This document shows, one piece after another, positions 23,341 through 26,700 of a stretch of DNA of 64,000 nucleotides; within the stretch, counting starts at the first letter, position 1, and the number at the start of each line of letters is the position of its first letter. This stretch comes from Tupaia tana (taxonomy: Eukaryota; Chordata; Mammalia; Scandentia; Tupaiidae), in contig JAKSZU010000029.1 in NCBI GenBank assembly GCA_026018925.1, forward strand, positions 11,714,363 to 11,778,362. Direction: 5' to 3'. Under the pieces are notes generated by a model. The model ran no database searches. It saw only the letters and a list, made by a program, of their open reading frames with translations, and was not told the origin of the DNA. The position numbers and the translations under genes were made by a program.

Positions 23341-23561
23341 GGGAATTCGTCTGGGCTTGTGAAGCGGTCCGACGGGTGCTGGACCCGAGGCGACGTAGAG
23401 CTGTAGCGAGTCTGCGACCCAGCCGGAGCGGCTGCTGGTTAGGAATCTGAAGTAAACAAGAATGCAAGATGTCTTCAATGTGGTCTGAATATACAATTGG
23501 AGGAGTGAAGATCAGCTTTCCTTGTAAAGCTTACCCATCACAGCTTGCTATGATGAATTCT

Positions 23562-23706
23562 CATGTATATGTTCACTGAGAGAGACAGAGAGAAAGTGAG
23601 AAATCACCTCCCAGTGGGGATGGCAGAGAGAAAGTGAGAAATCACCTCCCAGTGGGGATGGCCATCTATAATTCCTTCTCCGTTCTCCTCTCAGGATTTT
23701 GGGCAG
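23562..23706 (-). mobile_element. SINE-derived 145-bp insert at codon 31/32 of the retrocopy
   Basis: The insert is part of the minus-strand tRNA SINE (gagaaatcacctcccagt to ggattttgggcag) with an internal tandem repeat of about 36 bp. It has neither SINE end, no A tail and no target duplication, so it is not an ordinary insertion. It sits exactly between the codons for Ser31 and residue 32. Confidence 0.85.
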
Positions 23707-26700
23707 ATTGTCCGAGGATTAAATGGTAAGCAACACTGTTTGCTGGAGAGCCCCACAGGAAGTGGAAAAAGCTTAGCTTTACTTTGTTCTGCATTAGCAT
23801 GGCAACAGTCTTTTAGTGGGAAACCAGGAGATGAAGGGTCAAGTAAAAAAACTGAAGTAGGATTGTCATGCTGTTGTACATGCCATTCAAAGAATTTTAC
23901 AAACAATGACATGGACCAAGGAAATTCACCTCATTTTATCGGTCCAAGCACACCACCTTCTAAAAGAAGTGGCACTTCCTCAACTTGTCAAGACTCTCCT
24001 GGAAAAAATACTCTGGCTGCAAAGTTATCTGCCAAGAAACAGGCATTCATTTACAGTGATGAAAATGATGATTTCCAAGTAGAGAAGAAAAGAATTCGAC
24101 CTTTGGAAACTACACAGCAGATTAGAAAACATCATTGTGTTGAAAAGGAAGTACACCATTTGGATGAAAATGTTGCTTCTGGAAAGCCCATAAAACTCAA
24201 TTCTCCATTAAGAAAGATAATTTCTCCACAAAATTCGCCTGGTCACTGTTCTCTGTGCTGTTGTTCCACTAAACAACGAAACAGTCAAGAGTCTTCAATT
24301 AAGAAGGATCCTGGGGGGAAATCTAAGATACCCAAAATATATTTTGGGACTCGCACACACAAGCAGATTGCTCAGATTACCAGAGAGCTCCGGAGGACAG
24401 CATACTCAGGGGTCCCAATGACTATTCTGTCCAGCAGGGATCATACTTGTGTCCATCCTGAAGTAGTAGGTAACTTCAACAGAAATGAAAAGTGTATGGA
24501 ATTGCTGGATGGAAAAGATGGAAAATCCTGCTATTTCTATCATGGTGTTCATAAAATTAGTGATCAACACACGTTACAGACTCTCCAAGGAATGTGCAAA
24601 GCCTGGGATATAGAAGAACTTGTTAACTTGGGGAAAAAACTAAAGGCTTGTCCATATTACACAGCCCGAGAACTAATAGAAGATGCAGACATAATATTTT
24701 GTCCCTACAACTATCTTCTAGATGCCCAAATAAGGGAAAGTATGGATATAAATCTGAAGGAACAGGTTGTCATTTTAGATGAAGCTCATAACATTGAGGA
24801 TTGTGCCCGGGAATCAGCAAGTTATAGTGTAACAGAAGTTCAGCTTCGATTTGCTCGGGATGAACTAGATAGTTTGGTTAACAGTAATATAAGGAAGAAA
24901 GACCATGAACCCCTACGAGCTGTGTGCTATAGCCTCATTAATTGGTTAGAAGCGAACTCTGAACATCTTGTGGAAAGAGATTATGAGTCATCTTGTAAAA
25001 TATGGAGTGCAAATGAAATGCTCTTAAATTTACACAAAATGGGCATCACCACTGCTACTTTTCCCATTTTGCAGGGACATTTTTCTGCTGTTCTTCAAAA
25101 AGAAGAAAAAGTCTCATCAATTCATAGTAAAGAAGAGGCAAGAGAAATACCTATCATTAGTGCTGCAACTCAAATAATGCTCAAAGGACTTTTTATGGTG
25201 CTCGACTACCTTTTTAGGCAAAATAGCAGATTTGCAGATGATTATAAAATTGCTATTCAGCAGACTTACTCCTGGATAAATCACACTGATATTTCAGATA
25301 AAAATTGGCTAATGGTTCTACCAAAAAATAAGAAACGTTCACGACACAAAACTGCAGTTCGTGTGCTAAACTTTTGGTGCTTAAATCCAGCTGTGGCCTT
25401 TTCAGATATTAATGGCAAAGTTTGGACAATTGTTTTGACATCTGGTACGTTATCACCAATGAAATCCTTTTCATCAGAACTTGGTGTTACATTTACTATC
25501 CAACTAGAGGCTAATCATGTCATTAATAACTCACAGGTTTGGGTTGGTACCATTGGATCAGGCCCCAAGGGTCGGAATCTCTGTGCTACCTTCCAACATA
25601 CTGAAACATTTGAGTTTCAGGATGAAGTGGGAGATCTTTTGTTATCTGTGTGCCAAACTGTGAGCCAAGGAATTTTGTGTTTCTTGCCATCTTACAAGTT
25701 ATTAGAAAAATTAAAAGATCGTTGGCAGTACACTGGTTTATGGCATAATTTGGAGTTGGTGAAGACAGTCATTGTAGAACCACAAGGAGGAGAAAAAACT
25801 GATTTTGATGAATTGCTACAGGTATACTATGATGCAATCAAGTACAGAGGAGAGAAAGATGGAGCCCCCCTTGTAGCAGTCTGTCGTGGTAAAGTGAGTG
25901 AGGGTCTGGATTTTTCAGATGGCAATGCCCGTGCTGTCATAACGATAGGAATTCCTTTTCCAAATGTGAAAGGTCTACAGGTTGAACTAAAGCGACAGTA
26001 CAATGACCATCATTCAAAATTGAGAGGTCTTTTACCTGGCCGTCAGTGGTATGAAATTCAAGCATACAGGGCCTTAAACCAGGCCCTAGGTAGGTGTATT
26101 CGTCACAAAGATGATTGGGGAGCGCTTATTCTGGTGGATGATCTCTTTAGGAGCAACCCAGATCGCTATATATCTGGACTTTCTAAATGGGTTCGGCAGC
26201 AAATTCAGCACCATTCAACATTTGAAAGTGCACTGGAGTCCTTGGCTGAATTTTCCAGAAAGCACCAAAAAATCATTGATGTATCCAAAAAGAATAGAAA
26301 GTATATACAGGATGAGGTTGTGCTTGAAGAATCCTGTTTGAAGGACGATACCCCAGCCAACTTACTGGAAGCAGCAAGTCACCTATCACCAGAAAATCCT
26401 AAGGAAGATCAAGCAACAGTGTGTGTCCAAGAATTACGACGTCCTAGAGTGATTATTCAAAATCCATCTCTACCAAGTGGCATCATCTCTGGAAAAGAGA
26501 AAAATGATCCAGTATTATTGGAAGAGTCTGTCCAGGCAAAGAAAGCAGAAAAAAATGTGATTTCCAGATCTACAAGCCCAACTTTCAACAAACAAGCAAA
26601 GAGAGTTAGCTGGTCCAGCTTTGGGACAGTATTTTACTGGTAAAATGCTCACTGTATCACCTGGGCTTAGGACATCAGAGGATTGTACCTCTAGTGATTC

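Follow-up and report, generated by a model that had tools for sequence, protein, structure and literature searches.

How did a reversed fragment of a SINE come to lie exactly between two codons of an intronless copy of BRIP1 (FANCJ helicase)? The retrocopy occupies positions 23340-29036 of the window, the 64,000-nucleotide stretch of Tupaia tana DNA analysed here, and brings 20 parental exons together at their splice junctions, with the introns precisely absent. Between exons 2 and 3 it carries a cryptic insert of 145 nt. The original prediction held that the parental transcript had spliced in a SINE from the intron after codon 31 and that the retrocopy had frozen this splice form. Both the presence of the segment in parental intron 2 and the exon junction at the insertion point support this explanation. 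We regard it as very probable that an antisense SINE in BRIP1 intron 2 was spliced as a cassette exon and that the mRNA was then retroposed, its splice form preserved in the copy.

The insert and its probable source in the parent gene

The parent gene lies on the minus strand of contig C220 in the window's own genome (G000, 2.95 Gb), and the retrocopy reads on the plus strand of the window. Exon 1 (5' UTR) is found at 23340-23438 (parent G000:C220:32510184-32510086, minus strand), with 6 substitutions in 99 aligned bases. It is followed by exon 2 at 23439-23561, which holds the start codon (ATG at 23469), ends with codon 31 and is identical to the parent at 123 of 123 bases (C220:32507870-32507748, minus strand). 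Exon 3, which begins with codon 32, lies at 23707-23818 (parent C220:32504533-32504422, minus strand), and exons 4-20 follow without introns at 23819-29036. These include the 3' UTR to 20 nt past AATAAA, where homology with the parent stops, as it would at a polyadenylation site.

The last base of codon 31 (TCT) is at 23561 and the first of codon 32 (ATT) at 23707, and the insert fills 23562-23706 on the plus strand between them. The range first given for it, 23559-23709, was three nucleotides too long on each side. The claim that 145 bp of reversed SINE sits exactly between codons 31 and 32, lacking SINE ends and tail, was nevertheless confirmed. When aligned to a 60-copy consensus, the insert is SINE sequence in reverse orientation with neither the head nor the A-tail, and the parental copy continues past the 145 nt at both ends. 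The order in the retrocopy, exon 2, SINE exon, exon 3, matches the product expected of splicing.

A DNA search with window 23540-23720 as the query returned the window itself and then, second among the best 40 of 2348 candidates, C220:32505907-32506051 on the minus strand. This match has 99% identity over query positions 23-167, which correspond exactly to 23562-23706. Within the same best 40 of 2348 first-look candidates, the third match reached 83% over query positions 36-169, and the remaining 37 of the 40 scored matches covered the query's second half only, and that in part. The upstream query, 23340-23561, gave three matches, namely the window, C220:32507748-32507871 and C220:32510077-32510184, the latter two upstream on the parent's strand. 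Mapping of the retrocopy on 200 kb of C220 placed its 20 exons in their proper order over 32510184-32331076; one more block, the 145-nt segment, fell between exon 2 and exon 3.

The check proposed with the original prediction, a search for the same SINE segment in the intron after codon 31, thus found it there, flanked by AG and GT (C220:32506051-32505907, minus strand) and identical to the insert at 144 of 145 positions. At the position of window 23615 the retrocopy has T and the parent C. With exon boundaries marked by slashes, the acceptor flank of the 145 nt is TTTTTTTTTTTTCATATAG/ and the donor flank /GTATGC, and the parental sequence across the SINE exon runs ...ACACATACACCTTTTTTTTTTTTCATATAG/CATGTATATG ... 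GATTTTGGGCAG/GTATGCACACATGCCC... Parental exon 2 ends AATTCT/GTAAGT, and exon 3 starts TGTTCATAG/ATTGTC (tcatag/ATT). Codons 31 and 32 therefore meet at an exon junction in Tupaia tana as well (TCT/GTAAGT and TCATAG/ATT), as had been assumed. By coordinates, parental intron 2 measures 3214 nt and consists of 1696 nt, the 145-nt exon and a further 1373 nt.

All 20 junctions of a 21-exon mRNA, both SINE-exon junctions included, had a possible placement at parental GT and AG, each with 59 or 60 of 60 bases equal to the retrocopy. The placement script demanded GT/GC and AG, but both ends of the SINE exon had been obtained from unconstrained matches, and these ends coincide exactly with the parental AG and GT. 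Since the intron matches at 144 of 145 positions and the match ends exactly at both splice sites, chance does not explain the insert.

An old SINE and the origin of its splice sites

The SINE consensus was derived from 60 of the 154 matching copies in the 200 kb of C220 and the window. It is about 250 nt long and has an A-tail and A and B box-like motifs of tRNA type. As judged by eye, the consensus starts with these motifs, which sets it apart from Alu, a 7SL-derived dimeric element. The parental copy lies antisense to BRIP1 and is about 25% diverged from the consensus, against a median of 18% for 268 copies, a set drawn from the 200 kb plus the window that includes two fragments of the retrocopy's own insert. 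Across the BRIP1 span (G000:C220:32331076-32510184), 129 copies are antisense and 71 sense, an uneven orientation in this gene.

On the gene strand, the A-tail of the SINE reads as a T run, here a 12-T tract, at the position of a polypyrimidine tract, and the 3' splice site lies inside the SINE directly after it. This acceptor is given by the family: the antisense consensus has TATAG/G after the T run, and the AG is retained in 190 of 229 readable copies. The 5' splice site, also in the element, is three point changes away from the consensus (CAC/GCACGC in the consensus, CAG/GTATGC in the parental copy). GT stands at the donor position in 13 of 226 readable copies, and CAG/GT is found in the BRIP1 intron 2 copy only. 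Within the BRIP1 span, 110 of the 129 antisense copies have a readable donor; seven of these carry GT and one, the intron 2 copy, carries CAG/GT. That the sole antisense CAG/GT copy in BRIP1 is the very one found in the retrocopy lends independent support to the splicing explanation. Further, the position of the exon at the exact junction in the retrocopy would place it in a mature transcript.

Splice-site scores were simple and crude, with an acceptor matrix built from BRIP1's own sites. On this scale the SINE-exon donor ranks 7th of 20 and its acceptor 6th of 20 among BRIP1 sites. Within intron 2, the donor is second among 169 GT and the acceptor fourth among 217 AG. As one GT and three AG outscore them, the scores by themselves would not have singled out the SINE exon.

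The exon also contains two tandem units of a purine-rich 38-nt stretch (23586-23661, plus strand), which are identical in the retrocopy and one base apart in the parent. Because the units are nearly unmutated inside an old SINE, the duplication seems much younger than its host. It was probably young at the time the mRNA was copied, and the exon may have been made stronger by it. A similar tandem duplication, joined differently, is present in a further copy of the SINE at L003 1501-1639 (G000:C331), which suggests that this stretch of the SINE may duplicate repeatedly.

Predicted effect on the BRIP1 message and competing readings

The parental frame is open for 1249 codons without the segment and for 36 codons with it. 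Whichever frame is read, the segment contains a stop, and its length of 145 nt is not divisible by three. As originally stated, it adds 145 nt and a TGA, which lies in frame at codon 37 (23577-23579, plus strand), and the frame is shifted. This TGA stands 127 nt upstream of the exon end, with 18 junctions downstream by exon count, and hence more than 55 nt before a junction; from such a position NMD is to be expected, though it is not certain. The Walker A motif (SPTGSGKS) starts at codon 46, downstream of the TGA, so that inclusion of the exon should yield no helicase and would probably expose the mRNA to NMD. The earlier proposal of a poison exon in the parent thus holds as a prediction from sequence. 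For comparison, about 40% of stop-carrying Alu-exon isoforms were NMD-sensitive in human cells (PMC5115870).

The parent cannot use the exon constitutively, as its 1249-codon frame is open only without it; given this intact frame, the exon must be skipped in productive BRIP1 mRNA. In human cells, hnRNP C binds T-tract elements and represses exons of this type (PMC5115870). The 12-T tract of the SINE exon is of the kind bound by hnRNP C in human, and by this analogy inclusion may be rare.

The segment could also be read as a regular, regulated poison exon by which the germ line tunes its FANCJ level, and not as a product of occasional mis-splicing. Both parental splice sites are intact today and rank well among BRIP1's own, the donor of exon 2 itself is weak (19th of 20 BRIP1 donors by the simple matrix score) and one retroposed mRNA carried the exon. 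However, the 12-T tract suggests repression. Further, the retrocopy samples a single molecule and was noticed for its exon, so nothing follows from it on how often the exon is used. We consider regular use of this kind unlikely. Equally doubtful is a wider conjecture, in which the germ line uses a lineage-specific BRIP1/FANCJ poison exon today. On this view the three changes at the donor would have activated the exon, the recent tandem duplication of its purine-rich 38-nt stretch, which resembles an enhancer, might have strengthened it, and the exon would represent an independent counterpart of the human Alu exon controlled by hnRNP C. If this were true, BRIP1 would be a recurrent target of SINE-driven dosage control.

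Misassembly of the retrocopy or of the intron segment is very improbable. The parent region examined does contain five N runs, 1304 bases in total, but there are none near exons 1-3. Moreover, each copy stands in its own flanks on a different contig, and 35 substitutions and six indels separate the two in 5693 aligned bases. There remains the landing of a SINE in the finished retrocopy, by chance at the exon 2/3 junction, for which it can be said that the insert is SINE sequence and has many relatives (at least 40 matches genome-wide, 268 copies in the 200 kb plus the window), but which has a negligible probability and is refuted by the intron 2 copy: the very same individual copy, its internal 38-nt duplication included, stands there at 144/145, the next best among the matches listed reaches 83%, and the insert, lacking head and A-tail, stops at precisely the AG and GT of the parent.

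Proposed history and comparison with known systems

In the history we favour, in which the SINE was spliced from the parental intron, an old tRNA-type SINE came to sit antisense in BRIP1 intron 2. Its A-tail, read as a T run, would work as a polypyrimidine tract, the TATAG of the family would give the acceptor AG, and the change from CAC/GCACGC to CAG/GTATGC would make a good donor. In one BRIP1 mRNA or more, the spliceosome would then have treated the 145 nt of SINE as a cassette exon, joined to exon 2 on one side and exon 3 on the other; the exact junctions of the retrocopy point to such an event. As the retrocopy was inherited, the exon-bearing mRNA would have arisen in the germ line or early embryo. 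With exons 1-20 joined at the normal splice junctions and its 3' end cleaved downstream of AATAAA, it would have been reverse-transcribed and inserted at the locus in the window, with L1 as the probable agent. In the parent, inclusion of the exon would close the frame at codon 37, with NMD as the probable outcome. The order of the donor changes, like the agency of L1 and NMD, is something we infer.

Between the retrocopy and the spliced parent, the 35 substitutions in 5693 aligned bases amount to 0.61%, and 12 of the 35 occur where either copy has CpG. The retrocopy has also lost 6 nt at one site and 8 nt at another, and gained a single nucleotide at each of four. Divergence is highest in exon 1: all six differences there fall at a CpG of either copy, and the retrocopy shows a C-to-T or G-to-A change at just three of them. 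Twelve of the 35 substitutions lie in the 3' UTR part (after 27349), from which, with a mammalian substitution rate, an age of roughly one to three million years may be estimated.

The flanks of the retrocopy are A/T-rich; a repeat search there found no clean target-site repeat, and no clear tail is seen. By eye, a weak candidate for an A/T-rich 5' target-site duplication, with a TA-repeat expansion relative to the 3' one, was noted at 23327-23339, and at 29037-29057 an equally weak candidate for a short A-tail that runs into the 3' target-site duplication, both on the plus strand. A genome search with exons 1-2, a query that 5'-truncated copies would escape, found no further BRIP1 retrocopies. 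Starting at codon 32, the retrocopy keeps an open frame of 978 codons (window 23707-26641), and the stop at 26641 follows the 8-nt deletion. As the retrocopy is very young, this long open frame is no sign of function.

SINE exonization and the role of retrocopies as fossil transcripts are both already known, and the BRIP1 case is a well-supported further instance. Processed pseudogenes were reportedly treated as fossil transcripts that keep parental splice forms by Shemesh et al. (PNAS, 2006). The BRIP1 retrocopy resembles that case in keeping a parental splice form; unlike it, the form kept here has a SINE exon with a stop, and both splice sites persist in the parent. In passages of PMC2584115, no case was seen of a retrocopy that preserves a splice form of its parent. 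Similarly, titles and abstract beginnings among the open-licence matches listed gave no prior account of a BRIP1 retrocopy with a cryptic exon. PMC12528612 describes a different event, a mouse isoform of Brip1 whose novel first exon lies in intron 6.

With the retrocopy and the intact parental splice sites in hand, a genome without RNA provides strong evidence for germ-line splicing of a cryptic SINE exon. The pair would offer a datable snapshot of the birth of an exon from a SINE other than Alu, the acceptor being inherited from the family and the donor reached through three changes. It would also mean that an mRNA with an early stop persisted long enough to be reverse-transcribed.

The closest parallel to the proposed route is the exonization of primate Alu elements. 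As set out in PMC2879366, the A-tail of an antisense Alu serves as a polypyrimidine tract, a 3' splice site follows and a donor lies some 120 nt beyond it. The change takes one or two mutations, and there is a bias towards the start of the coding sequence. Compared with the primate exons covered in PMC2879366 and PMC5115870, the BRIP1 exon is alike in deriving from an intronic antisense SINE whose tail forms the polypyrimidine tract, with the acceptor just downstream and the donor at a similar distance of about 120 nt, and in being non-symmetrical and carrying a stop. It differs in that its SINE is of tRNA type and its donor is three changes from the consensus, as opposed to one or two for Alu. 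Further, it is known from a retrocopy, whereas the Alu exons are known from ESTs and RNA-seq.

BRIP1 itself provides the most direct comparison. In HeLa cells depleted of hnRNP C, Alu exons enter the mRNAs of BRCA1, BRCA2, RAD51 and BRIP1, and these mRNAs fall (PMC3621867). The hnRNP C-repressed human exon and the Tupaia tana exon share the gene, an antisense SINE with a U-tract and the expectation of a non-productive mRNA. The human exon was seen on hnRNP C depletion in HeLa cells (PMC3621867), and that of Tupaia tana through an mRNA copied into the germ line. As the SINE families are different, the two would be independent events. Human cells need hnRNP C against the BRIP1 Alu exon (PMC3621867), and together with the exon described here, this suggests that unrelated SINEs may repeatedly threaten or tune one and the same repair helicase.
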